Notes under the pieces: model-generated
The model's input: the letters and a program-made list of their open reading frames with translations, nothing else
What the model was told of the DNA's origin: nothing
Database searches by the model: none
In this document: positions 2,761 to 59,365 of the stretch, in pieces
How positions within the stretch are numbered: position 1 is the first letter of the stretch
Layout of the letters: each line of letters begins with the position of its first letter
Source of the DNA: Peristeroidobacter agariperforans
GTDB lineage: Bacteria; Pseudomonadota; Gammaproteobacteria; Steroidobacterales; Steroidobacteraceae
NCBI RefSeq assembly: GCF_004138335.1
Contig: NZ_RYFW01000003.1
Location: 496,001 to 560,000, forward strand
Length of the DNA stretch: 64,000 bases
Direction of reading: 5' to 3'
Translations under genes and position numbers: made by a program

Positions 2761-2918
2761 GGAGCTTGGCACCTGGACAATATTGGGGGCGCAAAGGTAG
2801 CCAACCTCATGGGCCGGAAAAATATCCGTTTGGCATCAGATCATGATTTGTAACCGGCCGTGACCGAAATCAAACCTTTGTGGTTCCGACAACGGCGCCA
2901 TCGCGTTAGGCTAGCTGC

Positions 2919-38296: not shown

Positions 38297-40729
38297 ATGC
38301 GTATTGGAATCGGAGCGGGTGTGAGTTTCGCGTCGCTGTTGTGGCTGGCTGCATTCAGCAGGACGGCCGGCGCTCAGGAATCGACGGTGGAGACGGGTGG
38401 AACGCTCGAGGAAATCATGGTCACCGCACAGCGGCGTGCGGAGTCGATCAACGAGGTCGGCCTGGCGATCCAGGCGTTCGATGCCGCCAGTCTCGAAGCA
38501 TTGCGTGTCGACAGTGTCGCCGACCTTACCACTGTGGTCCCGAGCTTCACGGTGTCGCAGAGCTATCAGGGCGTGCCGACGTATACGATGCGCGGCATCG
38601 GCTTCAACACGATCAATCTCTCCGCCACTTCAACAGTGGGCACCTATGTGGACGAGGTGGCGTACGCCTATCCCATCATGAATACCGGGCCGCTCATGGA
38701 CCTGGAGCGAGTGGAAGTATTGAAAGGACCGCAGGGAACGCTCTATGGCCGCAACACGACGGCGGGCCTGATCAACTTCATCACGGCGCGGCCGACAGAC
38801 ACCTTTGGCGCCGCTGTTACCGCCGACGTGGGCAACTATCAAAGTTATAACTTCGGCGGCTATATCTCCGGGCCGCTGTCGGAACGGGTGCAGGCGAGAA
38901 TTGCCGTTCGCAGCGAAAACAGCGGCGAAGGCTGGCAGCGCAGCGCGAGTCGGGGCGAACGGCTTGGCGAGATATCGAAACATGGCGTGCGGGCGTCGTT
39001 AGCTATCCAGCCCGGCGACGGCACTCAAATCGATTTCTCCGCGACCTATTGGCGCAACGAGTCCGACACCGTGGCCGGGCAGGGCATCGGCTTCACACCG
39101 GCCACTGCGAACAGCCCGTTCAACGCGCCCGGGCTGGTGAACTTCATCCGCAGCAATCCGCCGAACGATGCGACGGGTGCGGACTGGGCGCCCGAGTCCC
39201 TGCGCTCGACCGACATCGGCATTGGCGCAGGGCTGACCGGGCCGCTGCGCGAGAACAATCCTTTCACGGGTTTGAAGCTGCGCATCGACCAGGATCTTTC
39301 CGACAGCGTCAAGCTGGTGTCCCTATCGAGTTACAACGAGTTCGAGCGCGACGCGCTGTTCGACTGGAGCGGCGCGCCCTATGAGATCCTGGTGCAAAAG
39401 GCGACAGGCAAGATCCGCTCGCTGGCCGAGGATCTGCACATCGAAGGAGAGACCGACCGCGTGAACTGGCTGGTCGGCGCCTACTACGCGCAGGACGAGA
39501 TCCTCGATTCCAACCGGACGCTGCTCGGCCAGAACGCCAATGTGTCGTTGATCCGGACGGTGGGACTGCCGCTGCTCGCGACCCCGTTCAATTGTTGTGG
39601 CTACACGGCGGCCGACCTGGCGCGGTCGTTTCGCACCTATGAAGACGTGGGCAACATCGACACGGAGACGTGGAGCGTCTTTACCAACGCCGGTTTGCGC
39701 CTGAACGATCTGTTCAAGCTCAACGCGGGCGTGCGCTACACGGAAGATCGCCAGGACTATCGCGGCTGCTCTCGCGACTTCAACGGCAGCATGCTGCCGA
39801 ACGTGAACGTGGTGAATCGTGCGTTGTTCCTGCAGAACTACGGGATCCTGAGCGCGCCGATCTCGGCCGGCCAGTGTCACACGTTCGATCCGGTCACCGG
39901 CACGTTCCACGAGATCGTCTCGACGCTCGATGAGAGCAACGTGTCCTGGCGCGCCTCGCTCGACTTCACCCCGGCGGATACCACGCTGATCTACGCGTCG
40001 GTGTCGCGGGGTGCGAAAGCGGGCACGACGCCAATCAATCCTGCGAACATTGCGCGACAGAACGCGCCTGTGAAACAGGAGTTGTTGACGGCGTATGAGC
40101 TGGGCCTGAAGGCAACCGGAGCCGGGCGCACCCTGCAGACCAATCTCGCGGCCTTCTACTACGACTACGAGGACAAGCAGATCGGCACCTATTTCGCCGA
40201 TCCCATCTATACGGCGCTCACGCGCCTCGACAATGTGCCGAAATCCCAAGCCTATGGTGTCGAAGGCGATGTGACGTGGCAGCCCGTGTCGGGCATTACG
40301 ATCGCAGGCACCGCGCTGTGGCTGCAGACGGAAGTGAAGGACTATGTGGGCACAAACGCTGCCGGGCAGCCGCAGGACTATGACGGAGCCGAGTTCATCT
40401 ACAGCCCGGAGCTCCAGGCCAGTCTCTCGCTGCTTTATCTGCGTCCCCTCGGCAATGGGCTCAATCTCGAGATGACTTTGAACGGCCGCTATCAAGGCAA
40501 GTCGAACACCATCTTCGAGGATATCGATCTCTACAAAATTCCTGCGTACGGTGTGGCGAACGTCAGCGTCGGCCTGCGAGATGCGGAGGATCGCTGGTCC
40601 TTTACGCTCTGGTCCCGCAACGTGCTCGACAAATACTATTGGACTGCCGTCGCGAGCAACGCCAACGTGGTCGTCCGATTCCCGAGCCCGCCGCGGACCT
40701 ATGGCGCGACGATCGGGCTGAAGTTCTGA
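38297..40729 (+). CDS. TonB-dependent receptor divergent from the RoxA/Mo-hydroxylase operon
   Basis: 810 residues. A short signal peptide precedes the TonB-box/plug start EEIMVTAQRRAESINEV. Plug hallmarks YTMRGIGFNT, VEVLKGPQGTLYGRNTTAG and LINFITARPTD are present, then a full barrel ending PPRTYGATIGLKF. The VTAQRR subgroup is common in sphingomonads and steroid or aromatic degraders and often imports hydrophobic catabolites, in contrast to the Caulobacter-type glycan receptor at 14.8 kb. GGGGGAG precedes ATG 38297. It is divergent from the molybdenum-hydroxylase operon across 202 bp, so uptake of cleavage products is a reasonable inference. Confidence 0.92.
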   Translation: MRIGIGAGVSFASLLWLAAFSRTAGAQESTVETGGTLEEIMVTAQRRAESINEVGLAIQAFDAASLEALRVDSVADLTTVVPSFTVSQSYQGVPTYTMRGIGFNTINLSATSTVGTYVDEVAYAYPIMNTGPLMDLERVEVLKGPQGTLYGRNTTAGLINFITARPTDTFGAAVTADVGNYQSYNFGGYISGPLSERVQARIAVRSENSGEGWQRSASRGERLGEISKHGVRASLAIQPGDGTQIDFSATYWRNESDTVAGQGIGFTPATANSPFNAPGLVNFIRSNPPNDATGADWAPESLRSTDIGIGAGLTGPLRENNPFTGLKLRIDQDLSDSVKLVSLSSYNEFERDALFDWSGAPYEILVQKATGKIRSLAEDLHIEGETDRVNWLVGAYYAQDEILDSNRTLLGQNANVSLIRTVGLPLLATPFNCCGYTAADLARSFRTYEDVGNIDTETWSVFTNAGLRLNDLFKLNAGVRYTEDRQDYRGCSRDFNGSMLPNVNVVNRALFLQNYGILSAPISAGQCHTFDPVTGTFHEIVSTLDESNVSWRASLDFTPADTTLIYASVSRGAKAGTTPINPANIARQNAPVKQELLTAYELGLKATGAGRTLQTNLAAFYYDYEDKQIGTYFADPIYTALTRLDNVPKSQAYGVEGDVTWQPVSGITIAGTALWLQTEVKDYVGTNAAGQPQDYDGAEFIYSPELQASLSLLYLRPLGNGLNLEMTLNGRYQGKSNTIFEDIDLYKIPAYGVANVSVGLRDAEDRWSFTLWSRNVLDKYYWTAVASNANVVVRFPSPPRTYGATIGLKF

Positions 40730-44183: not shown

Positions 44184-48146
<3,963 letters not shown>

Positions 48147-48294
48147 AAGTCGCCTGCTCGCGTCCATTGGTGTTGTGGCGGGAGAGCGCATCACACGAAG
48201 TATCGGCCCGCCCGCCACGGGCCTGAGGAATCAATCAGCCTGGCGCCGCGTCGATCGCGTGGAAGTGTGAAGTCCGTCAGCCCGGCAAGCAGGC

Positions 48295-48335: not shown

Positions 48336-49292
48336 TCAATAGTTCGTATTGCCAGACTGAGTACAGCTCGACCACGGGCCGATACAGACCGTGCCGGCGT
48401 CGTGCAGCCGGCTGTTGGTGAGCCGAGCCGTGCTGCTCGAGCTGTCGGTGCGGAACACACCTTCATTCATATCGTTGATGTCGCAGCGGTCGAAAGTGAC
48501 GTTGATCTGGAACGTGGTGCCGCCGTTCTGTCGCAGGGCCTTGCCGGCGCGATGAATGATGCAGTTACTCACATTCAACGTGGAGGCGGCATTGATCTGG
48601 AAGAACTTGTCGTCGGCGTCGTAGCCTTCGATGTTGCGCACCGTGGTGGTGCCCGAAGACTTGATGGTCATCGCGTCCTCGCCGACGTTCATCCAATAGA
48701 TGTTGTCGAGCACGGCGCCGTTGTAGGTATGGATGCCATCCGCGCCGTTGGTGCCGATCACGATATTGCGCAGGGTTGCACCGTTCTCGACTCTGAACAC
48801 CGGCTGCTGACCTTCGGACTGACTGCCATCGCCGAGCGCCGAGCCGGCATTGAAACGCTGGCAACCGCCGTCGTATGTACCGCTCGTTACACGGATCGTT
48901 GCATTCACCGTGGTCTGCGCGCCGCCGGTCCCGCACGACGAGCCCGAGATCGTTCCACCGCCGCTGCCGCCAGAGGGAGTGGCCGAAGCCACGTTGGAAT
49001 TCTCAGCGACGCCGCTGACAGTGTTCTTGATCCAGTAATAGTAGGTCGTGCCGCCGCTCACGCCGGTGTCGACATAGTTGCGTGTGCTGGAGCTCACGCT
49101 CGCGATGCGCACCCGTCCGTTCGGGTTCGAATCCAGATCGCGATAGATTTCTTGGGTGACGGGCGTGCTGCCGGAATAGGACCAGTTGAGCGATACCTGG
49201 CCACTGCCGGCCGATGCCGTCAGGTTGATGGCGCCCCAGGATGTGCTCGCTGCCGCCAGCAGTAATCCCCCGAAAAACAACTTGCGAATCAT
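48336..49292 (-). CDS. Secreted PL3 pectate lyase with N-terminal fibronectin-III-like domain
   Basis: 318 residues from ATG 49292 (AGGAG 7 nt upstream). A signal peptide (FFGGLLLAAASTSWG) is followed by a Fn3-like domain (SGQVSLNWSYSGSTPVTQEI, GTTYYYWIKNTVSG). A Gly-Ser linker leads to a compact PL3 beta-helix: RVTSGTYDGGCQRFNAG, LGDGSQSEGQQPVFRVENGA, GADGIHTYNGAVLDNIYW, VGEDAMTIKSSG, NADDK-type YDADDKFFQINAAST, GKALRQNGGTTFQINV and VFRTDSSSST. PL3 enzymes cleave polygalacturonate by Ca2+-dependent beta-elimination outside the cell. The kinase downstream and the palindrome upstream may control it. Confidence 0.93.
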   Translation of the reverse strand: MIRKLFFGGLLLAAASTSWGAINLTASAGSGQVSLNWSYSGSTPVTQEIYRDLDSNPNGRVRIASVSSSTRNYVDTGVSGGTTYYYWIKNTVSGVAENSNVASATPSGGSGGGTISGSSCGTGGAQTTVNATIRVTSGTYDGGCQRFNAGSALGDGSQSEGQQPVFRVENGATLRNIVIGTNGADGIHTYNGAVLDNIYWMNVGEDAMTIKSSGTTTVRNIEGYDADDKFFQINAASTLNVSNCIIHRAGKALRQNGGTTFQINVTFDRCDINDMNEGVFRTDSSSSTARLTNSRLHDAGTVCIGPWSSCTQSGNTNY

Positions 49293-49461
49293 TGTCCATC
49301 TCCTATCCGTTGGATGTTTGGAACAAAGAAGATCCTGGCCGGGCGACGCTGCGGGCTGCGAAAACAGCTGCGGAACGACAGGCGCAAGAACACGATTGCG
49401 TGCTGATCCTTCGAGCACACACGACTATCTCCGACCTGGATTGGCTACCGGCGGCCAGCCC

Positions 49462-49495: not shown

Positions 49496-50170
49496 TCAGC
49501 GATATGTATACGTACAAGGTGCAGCGGAACGGTGACGGAGTGTCTGGACGTAGCAGCACGTCAAGCTCAGCACCAGCATCTCACCGCCGTCCTCCACCAG
49601 AGCCGCCAGGGTGTCGAACATCGTGTTCGTTAGCAGCCGATGTATCGTGTCGCCGCCAACCGCGAAAACCAGCAACATGATCAGCAGCAGGAGCAGATCG
49701 GCCGAGATGGCGCGCGCCATTGGTGAGCTGCGCATGTATGTGAGCACCAGAACGGGCGTGAGGACCACGGCGCCAATGGCAGCATAGATCAGCTCGCCGA
49801 AGTCTCTGCCGCGCAGGCCGCCGAAATCGGGGAGGTGCGCCCACGCCGTCATGCCCAAGCCGAAGCGCTCGTGAATGCGCATCGAATCGTCGAGCAACAG
49901 GAATCCAAACACGCCGATCCACATCAATAGCACCGGCAGGCGAGTTCTGTGAAACGAGTAGGCGAGCGCGAGCACGATGGCGCCGTACTTCAGATACTGA
50001 AACATCTCGCCGAAGCCGCGATCGTATCCGATGGACCAGAGCTCCGAGGTGAGCAGGCCGGTGTGGACGTGCAGCCAGTGCAGGGCCATGAACAGCACGT
50101 CACCCCCGATCAGGGCAGCCAGCATGTTGCGAGAGGCGGCACCCGAGTGCCGGAAGGAATCGTAGATCAC
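49496..50170 (-). CDS. Six-helix inner-membrane protein of unknown function
   Basis: 224 residues starting GTG 50170 (ATG 50125 also possible; neither has a strong RBS). About six hydrophobic helices are visible: MLAALIGGDVLFMALHWL, YLKYGAIVLALAYSF, LPVLLMWIGVFGFLLLDDS, ELIYAAIGAVVLTPVLVL, ADLLLLLIMLLVFAVGGD and LVEDGGEMLVLSLTCCYV. The charged positions DDSMRIHERFG, GGDTIHR and EDGGEM lie at helix ends and might bind metal or a cofactor, a pattern seen in uncharacterised membrane-hydrolase-like families. I do not recognise the family. Confidence 0.65.
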   Translation of the reverse strand: MIYDSFRHSGAASRNMLAALIGGDVLFMALHWLHVHTGLLTSELWSIGYDRGFGEMFQYLKYGAIVLALAYSFHRTRLPVLLMWIGVFGFLLLDDSMRIHERFGLGMTAWAHLPDFGGLRGRDFGELIYAAIGAVVLTPVLVLTYMRSSPMARAISADLLLLLIMLLVFAVGGDTIHRLLTNTMFDTLAALVEDGGEMLVLSLTCCYVQTLRHRSAAPCTYTYR

Positions 50171-50279: not shown

Positions 50280-51701
50280 TCACGTCACATACTTGATGAG
50301 CAATTCGCTCAGTCGACGTTTGCGCGCATCGTACGGAGGGAAGAGCAGTTCCAGCGCCGACAGCGGGCCGGCGGCCATCACTGCGCGCTCGTGCGAGAAC
50401 GCCTTGAAACCGAAGAAGCCGTGGGCATTGCCGATGCCGGAGGTGTTGACGCCGCCAAAGGGCAGATTGTGTTGCGCGAACTGCTGCAAGCACAGATTCA
50501 CGCACAAGCTGCCGGAGCTCGTGTTCGTTTCGATCGCCTGGACCGTGCGCTCGCTCTTGCTCCACACGTACAACGCCAGCGGTTTCGTGCCCGCATTGAT
50601 CTCCGCGATGACAGTGTCTAGAGAATCGAACGTGAGGATGGGCAATGCCGGGCCGAAGATTTCTTCTTTGCGAATCTGGGCCGCCGGCGGCACGTCTCGC
50701 AGCAGCGTCGGCCCGACATAGCGGGCATCGGCGTCGGATTCGCCGCCAAATGCGATTCGACCGCCCGCTTGCACAGCATCGTCGATGAGTCGAGCGACGC
50801 GCTCTGCGTGGCGACGGTGGATCATGCGCGGAAAATCGGCGCTGGCCTTGATCGCGGCGTCGGTCTCGCCGTAGCGCTGGGCGATGGTGCTGCGACAGAG
50901 CTCGACAAAGCGATCGGCGACATCACGGTGCACGTACACATAGTCCGGAGCGATGCACGTTTGGCCGGCGTTCACCATCTTTCCCCAGATGATATGTTCC
51001 GCGGCCCCGCCCAGATCGGCGCTCGCATCCACAATGACAGGCGATTTGCCTCCCAGCTCCAACGTCACCGAGGCAAGATGGCGAGCTGCCGCGGCCATGA
51101 CGATCTTTCCAACAGCGGGTGAGCCGGTGAAGAAGATGTGGTCGAAGGGCAATGAGAGCAGGGCGGTGGCCGTTTCCGCCGCACCCTCCACGACGGCGAC
51201 CTCGTCGGCCGCGAACACCGCGCCGACGATGTCTTTGATGACGCGATTGGTGTGAGGCGTGAACTCCGAGGGTTTGAGAATCGCCGTATTGCCGGCGGCG
51301 ACGGCAGAGACCAGCGGCCCCAGGGCCAGGCTCAACGGATAGTTCCAGGGACTGATGAGAAGGCAGCGGCCCTTCGGCTGATACACCACGCGCGAGCTGG
51401 TCCCGAGTGTCGCCATCGTCGCGCCGATCCGATGCGGCTTCATCCAGCGCTTCAGTTTCCCGATGGCGTGCTTCAGTTCGCCAACCAACGGCAGTACTTC
51501 GGTGAGGTTGGTTTCGGTCGGATGCTTGCTCAAGTCACGATGAGCGGCTTCCAGCAGCGCGTCCTTGCGCTCCAGAATCGCGGCGAGCAGCTTGGTGAGT
51601 TTCAGGCGCCGCTCGGCAACGCCTGACTGTCTCAGCCTGAGTGCCGTGGCTGCCTGGGACTCGAACAACCTGGCGACCGAATCATCCACCGGCGACTCCA
51701 T
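50280..51701 (-). CDS. Class-3-type aldehyde dehydrogenase (coniferyl/fatty aldehyde dehydrogenase-like)
   Basis: 473 residues from ATG 51701, 5 bp after the TBDR stop. Catalytic Asn120 lies in LLISPWNYPLSLALGPL, Glu215 in SVTLELGGKSP and nucleophile Cys249 in NAGQTCIAPDYV. The C-terminal NLPFGGVNTSGIGNAHG and PPYDARKRRLSELLIKY are typical of class 3 ALDHs, including coniferyl aldehyde dehydrogenases and long-chain fatty ALDHs. It converts an aldehyde to the acid with NAD(P)+ in the cytoplasm. As the last gene of the cytochrome/TBDR operon, it probably handles an imported aldehyde product. Confidence 0.92.
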   Translation of the reverse strand: MESPVDDSVARLFESQAATALRLRQSGVAERRLKLTKLLAAILERKDALLEAAHRDLSKHPTETNLTEVLPLVGELKHAIGKLKRWMKPHRIGATMATLGTSSRVVYQPKGRCLLISPWNYPLSLALGPLVSAVAAGNTAILKPSEFTPHTNRVIKDIVGAVFAADEVAVVEGAAETATALLSLPFDHIFFTGSPAVGKIVMAAAARHLASVTLELGGKSPVIVDASADLGGAAEHIIWGKMVNAGQTCIAPDYVYVHRDVADRFVELCRSTIAQRYGETDAAIKASADFPRMIHRRHAERVARLIDDAVQAGGRIAFGGESDADARYVGPTLLRDVPPAAQIRKEEIFGPALPILTFDSLDTVIAEINAGTKPLALYVWSKSERTVQAIETNTSSGSLCVNLCLQQFAQHNLPFGGVNTSGIGNAHGFFGFKAFSHERAVMAAGPLSALELLFPPYDARKRRLSELLIKYVT

Positions 51702-51706
51702 GGCTT

Positions 51707-54160
51707 TCAAAACGAGACCGTCGCTTCCACGCCCCACTGGCGTGGCTCGGAGATGGACGCGAACGGCGTGCCGAACGTGTCGGCCGTGAGCCTGTTGATG
51801 CCCGTCACGTACTGATCGTCCAGCACGTTCGTCACGTAAGCCGCGAGGCCGAAGGTGTCGCTTGCACTGGTCCAGGCGAGTCGCATGTCGAGGCGCTCGG
51901 TCGCTTCTCCGACCTTGAAGACCGACTGCAGCGCGCACGTGCCTTGTCGCTCGGAATCGGCGTTACAGCGCGACTTGCCGCGATACGCGAAGCGGCCGGA
52001 CAGCTCCACATCGCCCGTGGCGCCGAGTGCCCATCCATAGCTCGCACCGAGTGCCGCGCTGAGATACGGCTCACCGGTCGGCTCGCCAGAAAGATCGAGC
52101 GGATCCTCGCCGCGCGTCAGCTTGTCCTTGAAGGTCGCATCGATGAATGCAACGTTGGCATAGAGCCTGAACTGGTCGACCGGCCGCCACTGTGCGTCAA
52201 CGTCGATGCCCCACGCCTTCTCGTCGCTGGTATCGATCACGTACTGTGGGATGTCGGAGCCTTCGATGTCGTTGGCCAGCGCGATCGACTGTTTGTTTTC
52301 GTAGATGTAGTAGAATACCGAAGCGTTCAGGATCACGCCCGCGTCCGGGAACACGCTCTTGAAGCCGGTCTCGACGTTCCACACGTCCTCGTTCTCGAAC
52401 TCCGAGCCGACCTCGGTGCTGTTGTAGCCGCCGGCCTTGTAGCCCTTGGCGAGCGAGCCGAACACCATGACGTTCGGAACGACTTTGTAGTCGAGCACCA
52501 GGCGCGGGCTCACGTCATCCCACGAATCCTTCTTGGTCAGGCCGCCGGGCGGTGTGTCCACCTGGAAGATGATGTCCGAGAAGCGGTACGCCTCGGGCGG
52601 AATCCCCAAGACCGTGAAGAAAGGCAGCTCGATTCCCGGGACGATTACATCCTCGAGTCCCGCGACGACCGCGTCGAGCTCCGGAGTCTCGTGCGGGCCA
52701 TTGATCCACGTGAACTCTTTCGAGTCGTGCGTGTAGCGCAGACCGAAGGTCAGGTTGGTCTTGTCGTTCAAGTGCCAGATCACGTCGCCGAACGCCGCGA
52801 ACGCTTCGAAGTCGCCCTTGTTGTACATCGCTTCCCGCCACGGCATGCCGAGCATCGTGACGCCGAACGGCTCGAGGAACATGCTCGTGCCGGCGTACAG
52901 CGGGAAGGGGTTGCCGAGCGGGTCGACGATGTTGAGCTCTTCGAAGATGCCGAGGTTGAGCCCGAGAGTATCGATGCCGTCCGTGAACGTGTGGGTATCG
53001 CTGATCTGTTTGGCCTTCTCCTTGTAGTAGCTCACACCGCCAACCCAGTCGATCGCATCGGTTCTACCGGAGAGCTTGAACTCCTGATAGAAGCTCTCGT
53101 TGTCCTCGATGTTGGCTGTGTCGAAGTACACGCCGATCAGATTCGTGCCGTCCTCGTCTTCGCGATTAACCGTGTCGAACTGGCGCCACGAAGTGCTGGA
53201 ACGGAAGTCGACCGCGCCGAAGCTGTGATCCACGAACAGGTTCACCTGGTCGAGCTGACGCGATTCTTCGTTGCCGATCACGTCGTTATAGACCGGCGCC
53301 TTGCGAGGATCGAGATAAGTGGCGGGATCGGCCGGGAAGGGGACCTGCGTCTGCCCCGTCGAGATGGGAATGAGACCGATTGCGGGGCGTGCCAGCTGAT
53401 CGAGGTCGTCATGGTCCCAGGAGAGCGTCGCGCTGGTCGCGTCAGAAATTTTCCAGCGTAGCGCGACGCGGCCGGCCCAGTTCTCCTCGGGCATGAGGTC
53501 CTGGCCGGTGGCCGCGTCCTCGAGCCAGCCATCGCTCTTGTTATAAACGCCATTGATGCGAACCGCGACGTTATCGCCGAGCGGAGTATTCAGCATGCCT
53601 TCGTAGTACTGCTTGCCGTACTCGCCGACGCGCACGCGCAGTAACGAGTGGAACTCGTCTTCGGGTTGGCGGGTGACGATCGAGATCGCACCGGCGGCGC
53701 TGTTGCGCCCAAACAGCGTGCCCTGCGGGCCTTTCAACACTTCGATGCGCTCGATATCGTTGAATGCGAGCAGCGAGGCGCCGGAGCGAGCTGCATAGAT
53801 GCCGTCGACATATACACCCACGGCTGGATCGGTACCGACGCCGAAATCGCCGGTCTGAATGCCGCGAATCTGGTATCGCGGCTGGGTCGGGCTGCCGTCC
53901 GAGATGACCAGGCCCGGCACGAAGCCATTCAGATCGCCCATATTTTCCGCTGCAACGTCCTGGATCAGCGCGCTGTCCACGACCTGGATTGCGATCGGCA
54001 CATCCTGCAGCGACTGTGAGCGGCGCTGCGCCGTCACTACAATTTCCTCGACGCCGGTGGCTTCTTGCGCCGAGGCAGCGCTGGTCACTGCGGCTGCGAA
54101 CGCCGTCCCCGTCAGCACCGTGGCTACCGCATACGCGAGCTTGTTCTTGCGATTGATCAT
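51707..54160 (-). CDS. TonB-dependent receptor of the cytochrome operon
   Basis: 817 residues from ATG 54160 (GAGGAAG upstream). A signal peptide ends near TSAASAQE and the plug begins EEIVVTAQRRSQSLQDVPIA. YQIRGIQTGDFGVGTDPAVG, VYVDGIYAARSGAS and IEVLKGPQGTLFGRNSAAGA are plug hallmarks. The barrel ends PRQWGVEATVSF. The VTAQRR class suggests a hydrophobic or aromatic ligand. It lies between the beta-helix-cytochrome gene (54-bp gap) and the aldehyde dehydrogenase gene (5-bp gap), so uptake of a periplasmically or extracellularly oxidised product is a plausible role. Confidence 0.93.
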   Translation of the reverse strand: MINRKNKLAYAVATVLTGTAFAAAVTSAASAQEATGVEEIVVTAQRRSQSLQDVPIAIQVVDSALIQDVAAENMGDLNGFVPGLVISDGSPTQPRYQIRGIQTGDFGVGTDPAVGVYVDGIYAARSGASLLAFNDIERIEVLKGPQGTLFGRNSAAGAISIVTRQPEDEFHSLLRVRVGEYGKQYYEGMLNTPLGDNVAVRINGVYNKSDGWLEDAATGQDLMPEENWAGRVALRWKISDATSATLSWDHDDLDQLARPAIGLIPISTGQTQVPFPADPATYLDPRKAPVYNDVIGNEESRQLDQVNLFVDHSFGAVDFRSSTSWRQFDTVNREDEDGTNLIGVYFDTANIEDNESFYQEFKLSGRTDAIDWVGGVSYYKEKAKQISDTHTFTDGIDTLGLNLGIFEELNIVDPLGNPFPLYAGTSMFLEPFGVTMLGMPWREAMYNKGDFEAFAAFGDVIWHLNDKTNLTFGLRYTHDSKEFTWINGPHETPELDAVVAGLEDVIVPGIELPFFTVLGIPPEAYRFSDIIFQVDTPPGGLTKKDSWDDVSPRLVLDYKVVPNVMVFGSLAKGYKAGGYNSTEVGSEFENEDVWNVETGFKSVFPDAGVILNASVFYYIYENKQSIALANDIEGSDIPQYVIDTSDEKAWGIDVDAQWRPVDQFRLYANVAFIDATFKDKLTRGEDPLDLSGEPTGEPYLSAALGASYGWALGATGDVELSGRFAYRGKSRCNADSERQGTCALQSVFKVGEATERLDMRLAWTSASDTFGLAAYVTNVLDDQYVTGINRLTADTFGTPFASISEPRQWGVEATVSF

Positions 54161-54183
54161 GAGCCTGTCTTCCTCTGGCCAGT

Positions 54184-54207
54184 CATTAGTTATCAATCAT
54201 CAGTCAC
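54184..54207 (-). other. Three-frame stop-codon cluster between two operon genes
   Basis: In the gap before the TBDR start, the minus strand carries seven stop codons in 24 nt covering all three frames (TGA and TAA alternating). The stretch is much more AT-rich than its surroundings. It would block ribosomes that read past the upstream stop in any frame. Chance in a short AT-rich linker is possible. Confidence 0.45.
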
Positions 54208-54214
54208 TTCGTTC

Positions 54215-55735
54215 TCAGTTCGTCACTTGCAGCATGTATTGCGCGACCGCCAGGCGCGTCTGCGGATCGAGATAGTCTTGCGGCGGCATTTCAGGGTAGT
54301 CGTCACGTTTCTTCGCGGGCTTCGCGATGTAGTCGGCGAGGCCTTGCGGATTGTCCAGGTACAGCGCCTGGATCACTTGCACCGGCGGGCCGATCATGCG
54401 GCCGTTATATGTGTGGCAGCCGGTGCAGATTCCGAGGTACACGACCTTGCCGCGCTCGCCTGGCTTGATCTCGCGCGGTGGCACAGGTGGCAGCAGATAG
54501 TTCACCGTGGCCGCGGTGTTGGTGAAGTCACATTCGGTGAAATCACTCACGCCGACGGTCACATACTGATGACGATTGATGATGCAACTGCCGGGGCTCG
54601 GGCCGACGCGCACGATGTCCAGGTTCTTTGCGCCCACCTTGCCCTCGGCGAGCATCAGGGCCTTGGCCTCGGTGATCGTGTCGTAGCCGTTCCTGAGCAT
54701 CACGTTATCGAGGATCTTCACGCGATCCGAGTTCGGCTCGGACTCCGGATCGGCCGTGATGTTCTGGGCGTTGGCGTGATCCGTGATGATGATGCCGGAA
54801 ACCTTGTTGTCGGAAATGATGTTGCCTTCGATGACTACATCATCGGCCGCCATCACCAGGATGCCGGTGCCCGCCGGGATGCCGGACACGGTCGAGCCGG
54901 GCGCGCCGAAGTTCGGGTGGTTGTTGCCCACCACGAAGTTGTTACGGAAGATCACGTCGACCGTGTCCTTGATCGGCAGCCCCGGCGTGACGAAAGCGAG
55001 CAGACCGCCCGTGTTGTTGTGAACGTAGTTGTGCTCGACGATGGCGTGGCGGCTGTTCTCGATCTCGATGCCGGCGACGCTGTCGAACACATCGTTGTGC
55101 GCGACCAGGATGTTGTCGCTCATGCCGATGTAGATCGCCGCGTCGGCGATCTTCGAGACGACGTTGTGCTCGACGATGCCGTTCTGGCCGAGCTGCGGAA
55201 AAATGCCGTAGACGCCGGAGTCCACGATCACGTTGTTACGGATCTCGAAGTTGTTGCCGGCCTGGCCCATGATCCCGTTGCCCTTGTAGTTGCGGATCTC
55301 CAGGTTCTCGGCGACGAAGTTGTTGCCCGAGTACAGGATCGCGTCGTTGAGCTTCTTCTCGCCGTCGAGCACGGCGCGGCGGCCGGCCTCGATGACGCCG
55401 ATGATGCGGATGTCGTCTTTATCGACGTACACGGTTTCGTGATACGTGCCCGGCATCACTCGGACGATGGTTCCCTTCGGCGCCGCTTTGATGGCGGCCT
55501 GGATCGATTCGCCGTCCTTGACGACCACGACGTTGGTCGGCGCCGGACCCGCCACCGACCGGATCGCGTCGCCGGGTTTTACAGCGACGCCCTCGGCCTT
55601 GAAGCCACCCGCGTAGCTGGCGCCCTGCGTGGACGAACTGATCGTCATCTCTTGTTTGCCGCTGCGGCCGAAGTACGTGCCGGCGCCGAACGCCACTGCA
55701 GCGACCAGCAAGCCGATGATGAGGCCCTTCTTCAT
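54215..55735 (-). CDS. Exported right-handed beta-helix protein fused to a C-terminal cytochrome c
   Basis: 506 residues; AGGAG precedes ATG 55735. An N-terminal hydrophobic segment (LIIGLLVAAVAFGAGTYF) is a signal or anchor. From about residue 70, GESIQAAIKAAPKGTIVRV and PGTYHETVYVDKDDIRIIG start a parallel beta-helix with about ten NosD-like turns (FVAENLEIRNYKGNGIMG, FEIRNNVIVDSGVYGIF, IVEHNVVSKIADAAIYIG, VIEGNIISDNKVSGIII). The last 75 residues are a cytochrome c domain with C437-T-G-C-H, Met ligand in YPEMPPQDY and terminal helix LAVAQYMLQV. Beta-helices bind or process polymers; the attached haem suggests binding coupled to electron transfer. It follows the MauG-like gene by 2 bp. Confidence 0.85.
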   Translation of the reverse strand: MKKGLIIGLLVAAVAFGAGTYFGRSGKQEMTISSSTQGASYAGGFKAEGVAVKPGDAIRSVAGPAPTNVVVVKDGESIQAAIKAAPKGTIVRVMPGTYHETVYVDKDDIRIIGVIEAGRRAVLDGEKKLNDAILYSGNNFVAENLEIRNYKGNGIMGQAGNNFEIRNNVIVDSGVYGIFPQLGQNGIVEHNVVSKIADAAIYIGMSDNILVAHNDVFDSVAGIEIENSRHAIVEHNYVHNNTGGLLAFVTPGLPIKDTVDVIFRNNFVVGNNHPNFGAPGSTVSGIPAGTGILVMAADDVVIEGNIISDNKVSGIIITDHANAQNITADPESEPNSDRVKILDNVMLRNGYDTITEAKALMLAEGKVGAKNLDIVRVGPSPGSCIINRHQYVTVGVSDFTECDFTNTAATVNYLLPPVPPREIKPGERGKVVYLGICTGCHTYNGRMIGPPVQVIQALYLDNPQGLADYIAKPAKKRDDYPEMPPQDYLDPQTRLAVAQYMLQVTN

Positions 55736-55737
55736 CT

Positions 55738-56895
55738 CTATTCTCCTCGCTTGGCCGGCGCCAAACCGGAGGGGACTCGTGCCGGCGTCTGCGGCAGGAA
55801 AGTCTCATCGGTCAAGGCGCCCAGAAAATCCACGATTCGATCGACCTCGGTGTCCGTGAGCTTTGGATCCGAGATGTGCCAGTGCAGGTAGAGGTGCATG
55901 TCTTTGGGCACGGCGTTGCCGCGGCCTTTGTTGTAGAAGTCCACGACGCTGCGCAGGTCGGCGAACGCGCCGGAATGGGAATACGGCGCGGTGCGCGTGA
56001 TGTTACGAAGCGTAGGTACCTTGAACGCACCCTTCAACTTCGGGCTGTGCAGGATGGCTTCGGCGCCGACATCGAACGCATGGCCTTTCGGCTCCGGCAT
56101 GCCAATGACCGCGATCTGCTCGTTGGTGAACAGCGGCGGCGTATGGCACTCGGAGCAGCGCGCGACGAACGAGCGGAACACGTTCAATCCCTCGATCTCG
56201 CGCTCGGAGAGTGCGGCGTCGTAGCCGTGCACATACCGGTCGTAACGGCTGTTGAGCGATACGAGCGAGGTCTGGAAGGCGGCGAGCGCGGTGAAAATCT
56301 CTTGCTCCGCGATCGGGCCGCGATGGCTCGGGAATGCTTCCTGGAACAGGCGACGATAGGTGGCGTTGCCGTTCAGGCTTGCGAGCAGTCGGGTCGGCGT
56401 GTTGCCCATCTCACGCGGCGAGTAGAGCGGGCCAGAAGCTTGCGCTTCTAAAGAGTGCGCGCGTGCATCCCAGAAGAAGCGTTTGAGGAATGCAACGTTC
56501 CACAATGTCGGGGCTGCACGGCCTGCGTCCTCACCGTGAATGCCGAGCGATCTTGGACGCCCATCGGACAAGCCGCGGGCGGGATCGTGGCAGCTTGCGC
56601 AGGCCAAGGTGCCATCGCCCGACAACACCGGATCGAAGAACAGATAGCGGCCGAGATCGATCTGGCGCGGTGTGAATCCGTCGCGGTGCGGCGGCAGAGC
56701 GGTGCGGGTGCCGCCGAGGCCGCGATTTTCGAGCGAGTCGTAGAACTGATAGAGCGTGCGCAGCTCGCACACGCCGGCCTGGGTCTTCTCGAATCCCGGC
56801 GGGCAAGAAGTGTTGAGCGTGAAGTCAGGCGGTGCCGGCCCGGTTGCGCCAGCGGTCCCTATGGCCGCGATCAGCAACACGAGCGCGCGAATCAT
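55738..56895 (-). CDS. MauG/CcpA-like diheme cytochrome c peroxidase family protein
   Basis: 385 residues. The ATG at 56895 overlaps the stop of the cytochrome c4-like gene (ATGA). A signal peptide (RALVLLIAAIGTAGATG) precedes two haem sites, C99-A-S-C102-H and C247-S-E-C250-H. VGRYLFFDP-like LGRYLFFDPVLSGDGTLAC, APTLWNVAFLKRFFWDARA, FKVPTLRNITRTAPYSHSG and AFADLRSVVDFYNKG are hallmarks of the diheme peroxidase family. Members reduce H2O2 or, like MauG, oxidise protein or polymer targets at high-valent haem. No methylamine dehydrogenase is present, so the target may be the neighbouring beta-helix protein or its ligand (inference). Confidence 0.92.
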   Translation of the reverse strand: MIRALVLLIAAIGTAGATGPAPPDFTLNTSCPPGFEKTQAGVCELRTLYQFYDSLENRGLGGTRTALPPHRDGFTPRQIDLGRYLFFDPVLSGDGTLACASCHDPARGLSDGRPRSLGIHGEDAGRAAPTLWNVAFLKRFFWDARAHSLEAQASGPLYSPREMGNTPTRLLASLNGNATYRRLFQEAFPSHRGPIAEQEIFTALAAFQTSLVSLNSRYDRYVHGYDAALSEREIEGLNVFRSFVARCSECHTPPLFTNEQIAVIGMPEPKGHAFDVGAEAILHSPKLKGAFKVPTLRNITRTAPYSHSGAFADLRSVVDFYNKGRGNAVPKDMHLYLHWHISDPKLTDTEVDRIVDFLGALTDETFLPQTPARVPSGLAPAKRGE

Positions 56896-57536
56896 TTCGG
56901 GCGACCCTGCCGATGAATGAACGCGATGATGTCGTCGAGATCGCGCTCCGTCGGCAGCGTCCTGGCCATCATGGCCATCTGCCTGCCGGGCGCATCCTTC
57001 GGATCCGTCCCGCGCACCCCATCGCGGAAGTGCGCAAACTGCCGCTTTATATACGCGGCATCGAGACCCGCGAGTCGAGGCGCTTTCAACGCCGGATTGC
57101 CCTCGGCCTTGCCGCCATGGCAAGCACCGCACTTGCCTTGGTAAAGGTTATTTCCGTTGTGCAGATTTCCCGGCGCGGGCGCTGCACTGACGGTCTTCGG
57201 CAGGCTTGCGGCATAGCTCGCAACCTTCGCGATGGCCGCGTCGTCGCCGAGTGTCGTCGCCATAGCCTGCATCTGCGCGCCGAGCACATCGGACTTGTCA
57301 GCGCCGCGCCGGCGATTGCGGTAGTTGAGCAACTGTCGCTCTAGATACGCTGCGTCCTGGCCCGCGATGGCGGGGGCGTTGAGTGTCGCGTTGCCTTCGC
57401 CCTTGTTGCCGTGGCAGGCAACGCACTGTGCGAACAATTTCTCGCCATCGGCACTGAAAGCACTGGCGCTGTACATCAGCAACAGAGTGCCGATCCATGA
57501 CGAGATCGCAATTCCCCGGGCTTGGCTTATGAGCAT
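56892..57536 (-). CDS. Diheme cytochrome c4-like protein
   Basis: 214 residues with an N-terminal signal (SSWIGTLLLMYSASAFSAD). Two similar class I cytochrome domains carry C38-V-A-C41-H and C136-G-A-C139-H, each followed by G..EGN..L.AP..AG-type segments and Met ligands (MQAMATTLGDD; MAMMARTLPTE). This internal duplication is typical of cytochrome c4, a periplasmic electron shuttle. It is the first gene of the minus-strand operon and probably carries electrons between the MauG-like and beta-helix cytochromes and a terminal oxidase. Confidence 0.92.
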   Translation of the reverse strand: MLISQARGIAISSWIGTLLLMYSASAFSADGEKLFAQCVACHGNKGEGNATLNAPAIAGQDAAYLERQLLNYRNRRRGADKSDVLGAQMQAMATTLGDDAAIAKVASYAASLPKTVSAAPAPGNLHNGNNLYQGKCGACHGGKAEGNPALKAPRLAGLDAAYIKRQFAHFRDGVRGTDPKDAPGRQMAMMARTLPTERDLDDIIAFIHRQGRPK

Positions 57537-57838
57537 CAGAGAGAAAGATGCTGTTATGTTGATTGCTGCTGCACTGCTTCATATCCGACCTACGAACGGA
57601 TTGCAACCAGGCTCAGAAAACTGTCCGACAGTGGGACTGATGTCGTGGCGAGCGAACATCGTCGTATACAACGCCGCGTTGCCAGCAATGATACGGGCGA
57701 CGCAATGTTGCACAGCTGCAGCTGTGGACCTTAAGTAGTTCCGCAATCTTTTCGCCAAAACAATCTCAGGTAAGGTGGCCGCTCCAGAACCAAGACCATC
57801 TCAGCGATCTCAGAACTACAACAGCGGGGTGGTGCAGC
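57537..57838. promoter_or_regulatory. Divergent control region, cytochrome operon versus CHASE2 operon
   Basis: 302 bp with no supportable gene. It contains two palindromes: ACTGTC-C-GACAGT (57620-57632) and the perfect 16-bp CACAGCTGCAGCTGTG (57711-57726). Both are possible operators. GGGGTGG lies before ATG 57839 on the plus side; the minus side has a poor RBS before ATG 57536. Confidence 0.4.
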
Positions 57839-59365
57839 ATGCATGGAATCAAGCCGGCGGTTGCTTCTTGGGCAGCGCGGTTCCGCGCACCGTTGATTGT
57901 CGCGCTGACGGCTTTCATCGTTTCCTATGTCGATCCTCTCGGAGTCGAGGAAGCAACGGGCGATCGCGCTGCCGGCACGGTCATGCGCTTGTCGTCGACG
58001 CTGTGGTCAGGATCGGGGCAGGTGACGGTGGTGCTGATCGATCAGGCCTACCTCGAATCGCAACCGAACCCCGGCTGGCCGCTGAGCTATGGGGAGCAGG
58101 GAATGCTGCTGCGTCAGATCGCGAACGAGTCACCGGCCGCGGTGTTCGTGGATCTGCTTTATAAGAATCCACATCGGAATGCTCCCGCTGTGTTGACAGC
58201 GGCGCGCGCCGATGCTGCCGATCGGCACGACGCACCTGCGGACTTGCTCGAGCCCATTCGATCCAAGGATGTTCCTTTCTACTTTGCGGCCCTGCCCAAA
58301 TACGGCGGCGTCAAAGGCCAGGCCGAGGAGTTCGACGTCGCCTCGTTCTCGCCCGGACTCGATGAGCAGGGCAAGCTGGATGCCTCGCTGGAAAAGCGCC
58401 TGGCGCTCGTTTCGTGGAGCGGCTATGGCGACTACTACCCGTTGCGCCTCGGACGTGCTGGCGCAGTACGCACTCCGGCCTACGCGCTCTATCAGGATCG
58501 ATGCATCGCGCATCGGCTTCCCTGTGCAAGCGAGAGTCGTCAGTTCGAAAAGCCGATGAGGGTGCGATGGGGCGCCTTCGTGCCTCAAAAGATTGCCGGC
58601 CACATCGACGCGGGCGTCTGTCAGTACACCGACTTCGCAGGCAGCGTGAACTATCCGGACCTGTGGTTGCGAATGCGTGCACTGGCTTGGCAATTCATGC
58701 TGGCCCTCGCTGATCGAGCCAACGAAGCCAGCGACGTGAACAGCCGCTTGCCGTGCATGTCCTTCGCGGTGCTGCCCGCGTCGTTCCTCTCGGATGCCTC
58801 GGGTGCGAGAAATGAAGCACTGATCAAAGAATCATTGCAGGGCAAGTTTGTGTTCGTCGGCGCTGACATTCCCGGCATTCCGGATCGCACGGCCAGCCCG
58901 GTGCACGGGCAGGTGCCCGGCGTCATGCTGCACGCGATGGCGATGGAGAATCTGTTGACCGGCGAGGGTCGCTACCTGCGCGCCACGCCGGAGTGGTTCT
59001 CGATTCTCTTCAAGCTCGCGATTCTGTGCGCAGTGGCGGTCTTCGCGGCCTCTCGTCCGCTGAAGCAAGGCGGCTTCGTGTCAGCGGCCTTCGTCGTGAT
59101 CGGTGTGTGCGCGTGGCTTGGATGCGCGGCTTTTTCATTCATGCATGACAACACGGCCCGCGGCATGTTGTTTCTGATCGGCGGCGCGCTGGTCACATGG
59201 TTTGCCGCCGCGGAGACCGGCAAGGTCATCTTCTTGTTTGTCCTCATCAGCGCGCTGGCGCTGGGGATGATCGAGCTCGGTTGGGAGCCGACCAACTGGA
59301 TCGTGTTGGCCGTTGCGGCCAGTTTCGTACAACAAATATCGAGACACTTGCGCGCGAATTCGTAG
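57839..59365 (+). CDS. CHASE2-domain membrane protein without a recognisable output domain
   Basis: 508 residues. A first membrane helix near residues 15-32 leads to a large periplasmic CHASE2 domain: VTVVLIDQAYLESQPNPGWP, AAVFVDLLYKNPHRNA and LQGKFVFVGADIPGIPD then TASPVHGQVPGVMLHAMAMENL. At least three hydrophobic helices follow (LAILCAVAVFAASRP; FVSAAFVVIGVCAWLGCAAF; VIFLFVLISALALGMIELG). CHASE2 usually feeds adenylate cyclases or kinases, but this protein ends with the helices. It may be a sensor that signals through its downstream partners. The next gene starts 21 bp after its stop. Confidence 0.82.
   Translation: MHGIKPAVASWAARFRAPLIVALTAFIVSYVDPLGVEEATGDRAAGTVMRLSSTLWSGSGQVTVVLIDQAYLESQPNPGWPLSYGEQGMLLRQIANESPAAVFVDLLYKNPHRNAPAVLTAARADAADRHDAPADLLEPIRSKDVPFYFAALPKYGGVKGQAEEFDVASFSPGLDEQGKLDASLEKRLALVSWSGYGDYYPLRLGRAGAVRTPAYALYQDRCIAHRLPCASESRQFEKPMRVRWGAFVPQKIAGHIDAGVCQYTDFAGSVNYPDLWLRMRALAWQFMLALADRANEASDVNSRLPCMSFAVLPASFLSDASGARNEALIKESLQGKFVFVGADIPGIPDRTASPVHGQVPGVMLHAMAMENLLTGEGRYLRATPEWFSILFKLAILCAVAVFAASRPLKQGGFVSAAFVVIGVCAWLGCAAFSFMHDNTARGMLFLIGGALVTWFAAAETGKVIFLFVLISALALGMIELGWEPTNWIVLAVAASFVQQISRHLRANS

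Follow-up and report, generated by a model that had tools for sequence, protein, structure and literature searches.

Five genes on the minus strand of a 64,000-nucleotide stretch of the Peristeroidobacter agariperforans genome (contig NZ_RYFW01000003.1, positions 496,001 to 560,000; the whole stretch is called the window below) belong to a widespread, previously uncharacterised conserved system. They encode a cytochrome c4 (c4), a MauG-like di-heme protein, a protein that unites a beta-helix with a cytochrome c domain and that we call BHX, a TonB-dependent receptor (TBDR) and an aldehyde dehydrogenase (ALDH). The core of the system is the pair of MauG-like and BHX genes, usually joined by c4, while TBDR, an AraC-type regulator and ALDH are variable companions. 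We propose, with a probability of about 0.4, that a compound taken up through the TBDR would be oxidised in the periplasm on BHX with its MauG-type partner, that electrons would leave through the heme domain of BHX and c4, and that a cytoplasmic ALDH would then act on the product. Such a proposal links two functionally uncharacterised sets, the TIGR03805 beta-helix proteins and a group of MauG-like proteins, into one testable system. A search of open-licence papers found no description of a MauG-BHX system, in keeping with the remark of the original prediction, made from the letters of the window, that no named system has this set of genes. The genes and the region ahead of them are as follows.

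56892 to 57536, minus strand: cytochrome c4-type di-heme c cytochrome, 214 aa (Cytochrom_C in two stretches, 78 bits)
55738 to 56895, minus strand: MauG-type di-heme protein, 385 aa (CCP_MauG, 173 bits)
54215 to 55735, minus strand: BHX, beta-helix/cytochrome protein, 506 aa (Beta_helix, 65 bits; TIGR03805, 169 bits)
51707 to 54160, minus strand: TBDR, 817 aa (Plug, 71.6 bits; TonB barrel, 99.3 bits)
50280 to 51701, minus strand: ALDH, AlkH-like, 473 aa, no leader seen (Aldedh, 302 bits)
57537 to 57838, no strand: intergenic gap between the operon and a divergent CHASE2 gene, predicted to be the probable promoter region

Recomputed coordinates agree with those predicted: the five open reading frames (ORFs) all lie open on the minus strand and start with ATG, the c4 and MauG-like genes overlap by 4 nt, and the gaps that follow measure 2 bp (MauG-like/BHX), 54 bp (BHX/TBDR) and 5 bp (TBDR/ALDH). 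Pfam and NCBIfam scans were run on the longest ORFs, which gave 8 window proteins scanned. The three secreted c-type cytochromes that had been announced are borne out by the leaders of c4 and the MauG-like protein and by the anchor of BHX. As for the "five-gene operon", the genes stand as placed, but the label is narrower than the system, in which variable companions accompany the core named above.

Conservation of the MauG-BHX pair

A scan of a genome collection gave 313 loci encoding relatives of BHX, and their gene content was counted from tblastn and from protein clusters. By tblastn, among the best 80 of the 313, the MauG-like gene stands directly upstream of BHX on the same strand in all 80 loci, and a c4 homolog lies upstream of the pair in 62; the closest BHX relative among these 80 is that of Steroidobacter agaridevorans (96% identity). 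Adjacency in 80/80 relatives argues that the layout is more than chance; the order is not peculiar to this strain, and the conserved functional unit of the original prediction is upheld. The protein clusters cover 87 loci, namely the best 80 and seven of thirteen further loci fetched, L039-L044 having been excluded as encoding more distant beta-helix proteins. BHX is found in 87 of them, the MauG-like protein in 86, c4 in 66, TBDR in 43 and the AraC-type regulator in 35 (the AraC domain of this cluster was verified in one member). The sole locus without a member of the MauG-like cluster is L063, where the contig end cuts the gene. A TBDR of the operon cluster is present in 33 of the 54 loci that have more than 6.5 kb of upstream and more than 4.5 kb of downstream sequence. 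The excluded L042-L044, from other families of the order, form a remoter beta-helix group whose proteins, of 566-613 aa, each contain two CxxCH motifs.

The two core genes also travel together at a wider scale. Of 196 genomes in the order, 8 carry the BHX subfamily (170-189 bits), the window's own being one of them, and precisely these 8 also carry the MauG-like subfamily (590-685 bits, the next best score being 223 bits). In a survey of the phylum, BHX of the window type (at least 685 bits) was found in 7 of 398 genomes, again with its own included, and one of these lies outside the class. The module is common in marine genera and is carried by many Gammaproteobacteria, including SAR92, Halieaceae and Colwelliaceae; a megaplasmid of Ruegeria pomeroyi (Alphaproteobacteria) has genes for AraC, a c-cytochrome, the MauG-like protein (52.8%), a TPR protein and BHX (41.2%). 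The TPR protein gene of R. pomeroyi (L178:14553-15629) is inserted between the MauG-like and BHX genes. A search by the locus tags of this locus found no paper on it among open-licence papers.

Neighbours of the pair at other loci include genes for an acyl-CoA thioesterase, a CaiB-type CoA transferase, an acyl-CoA dehydrogenase and an SDR protein. A number of loci from Porticoccaceae, SAR92 and similar bacteria (L105, L107-L112, L114-L117, L120, L121, L123), some of them cut short, have neither c4 nor a TBDR of the operon cluster, and in several of these the pair has genes for an acyl-CoA thioesterase and a CaiB-type CoA transferase nearby. Clues to the substrate were also sought in further neighbours (PanP decarboxylase, AptA aminotransferase, a XylB-like kinase, polyamine transferase, SelO, G6PDH, ABC, MatE, SLT and Ada); they are mixed and look like chance. 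A FAD_binding_4 protein after BHX in L123 resembled a p-cresol-type oxidase and was dropped, having no NCBIfam match at the strict cut-off of 1e-60.

Exchange of the heme partner and the variable companions

A sister module was recognised in 15 canonical TIGR03805 loci fetched from the order. A gene for a two-heme protein adjoins the beta-helix gene in 14 of the 15, and L194, the remaining one, stops at a contig end immediately past the beta-helix gene. All ten two-heme proteins scanned (from 9 sister loci and a Novosphingobium plasmid) belong to TIGR03806, the SO2930 family of di-heme cytochromes, a family without a match among the 8 window proteins scanned; reciprocally, CCP_MauG found no match in the three sister two-heme cytochromes tested, and neither the MauG-like nor the c4 profile found one in 16 sister loci. 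The two modules are alike in their homologous beta-helix with the same groove signature and, in L190-L192, in the company of an ALDH and of a TBDR from the same set. They differ in that the sister beta-helix protein is without a cytochrome c domain (that of L190 reads as a lipoprotein) and in that its partner is the TIGR03806 two-heme cytochrome instead of the MauG-like protein and c4. The beta-helix is thus the constant element and the heme partner varies, a swap that amounts to a natural experiment on the role of MauG-like enzymes. Since no MauG-like protein was found in the sister module, it can be argued that what determines the substrate is the BHX groove and not the MauG-like protein.

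In L190-L192, which come from the window's family, the genes for the beta-helix protein, the TIGR03806 cytochrome, a TBDR and an ALDH stand together, and their TBDRs and ALDHs are, respectively, 43-45% (604-658 bits) and 37-38% (262-278 bits) identical to those of the window. A tree covering the window and 27 of the 43 TBDR-bearing loci unites the 28 TBDRs of MauG operons with 4 sister-module TBDRs in one set (99/98, unrooted), outside which fall three sister-locus TBDRs and seven TBDRs of the window's genome, among them the best-scoring paralogs of the window TBDR. The tree is a firmer test than the bit scores, which are sums of pieces and by which 45 of the 46 TBDR matches near the loci stand above the best own paralog (194 bits). 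On plasmids, the top match to the window TBDR, with 511 bits in two pieces, is a Novosphingobium TBDR beside a TIGR03805/SO2930 pair, and the next reaches 339 bits among the matches listed (best 20 of 896 records); around the Novosphingobium pair lie genes for a TBDR, an ALDH, an alcohol dehydrogenase and AraC. Judged from these sequences, this receptor and the beta-helix have remained associated in some lineages as the heme partner changed. Elsewhere among the sister loci, the TBDR match is more distant in L183, L189 and L196, L194 combines a weak TBDR match (32 bits) with an ALDH that is more distant, and eight of the 12 loci other than L190-L192 have neither match. The TBDR gene of the Novosphingobium plasmid (L180:3814-7606) is interrupted by an IS5 transposase gene.

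The predicted tie of the cytochromes to TBDRs and an ALDH is supported. An ALDH of the window class is adjacent to the module or one gene away in 8 of the 87 loci. The ALDH gene follows the TBDR gene directly in L045, L046, L049 and L054 (Steroidobacter, Peristeroidobacter, Povalibacter), lies downstream of BHX in three Colwelliaceae (L078, L097, L099) and is divergent from the TBDR gene in L033, with one gene between. A remote ALDH lies on the opposite strand in L070, a different ALDH-family protein is encoded downstream of BHX in L037, and a similar protein, by length and weak similarity, is found there in L038. In the ALDH tree, 14 rows (8 plasmid relatives, 5 Steroidobacteraceae and Massilia) form one set (97/90), all 13 ALDH paralogs of the same genome lie across a 100/100 branch from it in this unrooted tree, and the Colwelliaceae operon ALDHs group with the sister-module ALDHs of L190-L192 (100/98). 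The 8 plasmid ALDHs are 48.8-58.7% identical to that of the window (among the matches listed, best 20 of 3346 records), six of them being encoded in AlkB-rubredoxin-ALDH-AlkJ-like-CoA ligase operons and one beside a P450, an AlkJ-like gene and a CoA ligase. The next relative, a Massilia ALDH (41.6%), has an alcohol dehydrogenase gene as its neighbour and lies outside any alk operon, and the Novosphingobium plasmid ALDHs belong to another class. By its grouping with alk-operon enzymes the window ALDH can be assigned to the AlkH type, which points to an aliphatic aldehyde.

The alk operon (AlkB-rubredoxin-AlkH-AlkJ-AlkK) offers a comparison: its ALDH is of the same class and its logic is that of aliphatic alcohols and aldehydes, but the 8 window proteins scanned include no AlkB, P450, rubredoxin or AlkJ-like protein, and a heme/beta-helix module and a TBDR stand there instead. 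In the polyethylene glycol operon pegBCDAER, a TBDR, an ALDH and an AraC regulator surround an alcohol-oxidising step; oxidation there is the work of a flavoprotein, whereas the window has heme and beta-helix proteins.

Proteins of the module, a proposed mechanism and its rivals

The c4 protein has a Sec-type leader by eye, two CxxCH motifs and Met89 and Met187, both invariant in 67 aligned rows, and is likely an electron carrier. The MauG-like protein also has a leader by eye and binds its hemes at C99xxCH and C247xxCH; an invariant Cys31/Cys43 pair in the N-terminal segment and an HWH motif at 338-340 mark its group (87 rows). Bacterial cytochrome c peroxidases (CCPs) have a Met ligand on the C-terminal heme and a distal His on the N-terminal heme. 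Tyr321 of the MauG-like protein, conserved in 87/87 rows, aligns with the Met of bacterial CCPs; an annotated Methylobacterium MauG has a Tyr at that position. An Ile aligns with the distal His. The two CxxCH motifs, the Tyr at the MauG ligand position and the Ile together indicate the MauG type, for which passages of PMC6405878 give Tyr-His heme ligation. The assignment is to the type only, the scores against TIGR03791 (MauG; 191.6 bits, cut-off 443.85) and TIGR04039 (MbnH; 219.8 bits, cut-off 362.85) being below the curated cut-offs, and the 8 window proteins scanned include neither mau genes nor an MbnP family match. An argument from a surface Trp (Trp199 of MauG) was abandoned, as the annotated Methylobacterium MauG is also without that Trp in the alignment. 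The ColabFold model of the protein has a middling pLDDT of 70, so that its structural matches were used at family level only.

BHX begins with an anchor helix, continues with a right-handed parallel beta-helix (about 68-405) and ends in a cytochrome c domain (Cytochrom_C, 25 bits, cut-off 21) with the heme site C437xxCH441 and Met483. It scores above the TIGR03805 cut-off (169 bits against 141.5), yet far under the canonical members, which mostly score 400-436 bits, and it is the one TIGR03805 match in the 7.65 Mb assembly, where the TBDR barrel family has 117 matches. In a model of pLDDT 84.9 and pTM 0.82 (residues 438-447 of the cytochrome domain lie below 50), residues 3-24 form a hydrophobic helix, which suggests a protein anchored in the inner membrane and exposed to the periplasm. 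The original prediction had placed oxidation outside the cell, before import; the modelled anchor argues against that order, and uptake by the TBDR probably precedes oxidation. By fold, the model comes closest to alginate epimerases, tailspikes and pectinases (2pyg, Z 31.8, root-mean-square deviation (rmsd) 2.2, 281 aligned, level with 5lw3 and others), and such matches indicate a fold and not a function. A groove signature (YGxxP, DAxIYxGxSxN, VAGIEIEN, NxGGxLxF; positions within 176-180, 198-208, 220-227, 241-248 and 271-276) is common to both beta-helix types, being kept in at least 95% of 50 MauG-type rows and at least 85% of 16 TIGR03806-type rows, and Tyr176 and Tyr202 are shared by both types and by R. 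pomeroyi. What the MauG-type proteins have in addition is the C-terminal heme domain, together with residues conserved in at least 97% of the 50 rows, among them Met156, Met205, Lys256 and His320. The BHX of R. pomeroyi, the most distant MauG-type member, keeps Met156, Met205 and Lys256, and not His230, Met295 or His320. The window BHX has no Trp at all, which excludes a modification of the tryptophan tryptophylquinone (TTQ) or kynurenine type in this protein.

Put together, these elements suggest the following scheme. A hydrophobic compound, probably aliphatic or isoprenoid-like, would enter the periplasm through the TBDR; there the inner-membrane-anchored BHX would bind it in the conserved groove, and it would be oxidised to, or towards, an aldehyde. 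The MauG-type enzyme would serve as the dedicated partner of BHX: it would mature or oxidise BHX, or the two would act on the substrate together. A terminal oxidase would receive the electrons by way of BHX's cytochrome c domain and c4. The aldehyde would enter the cytoplasm, and there the AlkH-like ALDH may convert it to an acid for CoA activation. We know of no beta-helix oxidoreductase so far, and BHX, if it is indeed the catalytic part, would to our knowledge be the first.

Several observations weigh against this scheme. A catalytic role has been proven for no residue of BHX, and we infer the class of substrate. The c4 gene was not found in 18 of the 80 loci (5 of them cut less than 1 kb upstream of the MauG-like gene), 21 of the 54 loci with sufficient flanks have no TBDR of the operon cluster, and only 8 of the 87 have an ALDH of the window class beside the module. 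Moreover, the operon ALDHs need 3 changes on their tree, so that ALDHs of one broad class were recruited repeatedly and not inherited with the core, and the closest listed plasmid ALDH, that of a Burkholderia (58.7%), lies outside the alk operons. Related TBDR and ALDH genes occur together in only 3 of the 15 sister loci; at L155, the pair outside the class, no TBDR, ALDH or CoA-ester gene is among the nine neighbours scanned; some pairs have no catabolic neighbour, and the neighbours at several loci look random. Finally, the BHX of R. pomeroyi departs from the groove signature at five checked positions (A221M, I225F, G243A, L246T, F248T), and its start reads as a cleavable leader and not as an anchor.

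The module is a further version of the known theme of a MauG-like protein with its partner, here a beta-helix partner. In MbnH/MbnP, SACCP/MopE and CorB/CorA a MauG-like gene is likewise fixed to one partner, and MbnPH pairs often lie near a TonB-dependent transporter according to passages of PMC3621798; their partners are unrelated to BHX and contain Trp, and MopE and CorA are linked to copper. In MauG/methylamine dehydrogenase and MtoX-SCO1-MauG, a MauG or MauG-like gene stands beside the oxidoreductase that it matures or may mature (passages of PMC5739008 and PMC6405878), but the window protein falls under the TIGR03791 cut-off and the window BHX is without Trp for TTQ. Gene replacement has been done in R. 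pomeroyi, as part of PMC5739008 describes.

The copper-linked precedents make metal acquisition or sensing the chief rival: the MauG-type enzyme would turn BHX into a metal binder, a modification of the kind proposed for MbnH/MbnP or SACCP/MopE, and the metal, or a carrier of it, would come in through the TBDR. The MauG-like model (pLDDT 70) finds its top structural match in 6e1c, a MauG-like protein associated with microbial copper homeostasis (Z 18.4, rmsd 5.7, 300 aligned), with several CCPs within 1 Z; BHX matches a NosD chain (7osf, Z 27.7, rmsd 2.5, 264 aligned) and Pfam NosD; Met156, Met205, Met295, His230 and His320 are 97-100% conserved in 88 BHX rows; and the MbnPH pairs lie, as said, near such transporters. 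However, the want of Trp excludes a MopE-style, Trp-derived site in the window BHX, three of the five Met and His residues are those lost in R. pomeroyi, the beta-helix matches are generic to the fold, and the companions include ALDH and acyl-CoA genes, with no copper gene seen among the neighbours scanned. We hold this rival to be unlikely.

A bolder form of the periplasmic oxidation proposed above, and a rather doubtful one, is that the MauG-type enzyme would build a tyrosine-derived redox cofactor in the groove of BHX and so turn a pectinase-like beta-helix into a quinohemoprotein-like dehydrogenase that acts in the periplasm on an aliphatic substrate; the TIGR03806 sister would then be a second, MauG-free wiring of the same catalytic beta-helix. 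Modification of the envelope or of a polysaccharide, in which BHX would act on a glycan as other beta-helix enzymes do and the heme proteins would serve another purpose, draws on the epimerases, tailspikes and pectinases that lead its fold matches. Such matches are common to beta-helix folds, though, and no glycan gene recurs among the annotated neighbour clusters, where ALDH and CoA-ester genes do recur, so that we regard this explanation as improbable.

We give little credence to the extracellular oxidative cleavage of a polymer followed by import of the aldehyde. Steroidobacter cummioxidans uses the di-heme RoxA/RoxB and makes an aldehyde, ODTD, with its TBDRs among the suggested uptake routes (passages of PMC5979037), and the original prediction had considered a polymer of lignin-derived, lipid or isoprenoid kind; the modelled anchor helix of the window BHX, the spread of the pair over many marine genera and R. 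pomeroyi, and the mostly alk-type nearest annotated ALDH relatives (among the matches listed) speak against it. Periplasmic peroxide reduction, with c4 feeding a bacterial CCP, is equally improbable: the closest solved sequences to the MauG-like protein are bacterial CCPs and a c-cytochrome gene stands beside its gene in 62 of 80 loci, but its ligand residues (Tyr for the CCP Met, Ile for the distal His) led us to reject a peroxidase identity, and no role is known in peroxidase systems for the constant partner, BHX.

Surroundings of the operon

A promoter scan found no sigma-70-like match in the intergenic region 57537 to 57838, and two on the operon strand, one at the TBDR-ALDH junction and one below ALDH, against 1.7 expected from shuffles, a count that carries no weight on promoters. 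Divergent from the operon, a gene at 57839-59365 (plus strand) encodes a CHASE2-domain protein in which the scan saw no other domain. On the other side, 109 bp downstream of ALDH, a hydrophobic protein of 224 aa without a Pfam or NCBIfam match is encoded at 49496-50170 (minus strand), and L054 has a gene of 235 aa at the same distance past its ALDH. The second gene downstream of ALDH, at 48336-49418 (minus strand), encodes a pectate-lyase-like protein (PF03211, 143 bits) with an N-terminal extension. It is followed at 44184-48218 (minus strand) by a gene for a protein of 1344 aa, the translation of which reads as a beta-propeller hybrid sensor kinase with receiver domains; a gene of 1384 aa occupies the corresponding place in L054. 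Two further TBDR-like ORFs of the window, at 38297-40729 (plus strand) and 109-2772 (minus strand), lie outside the operon TBDR set.

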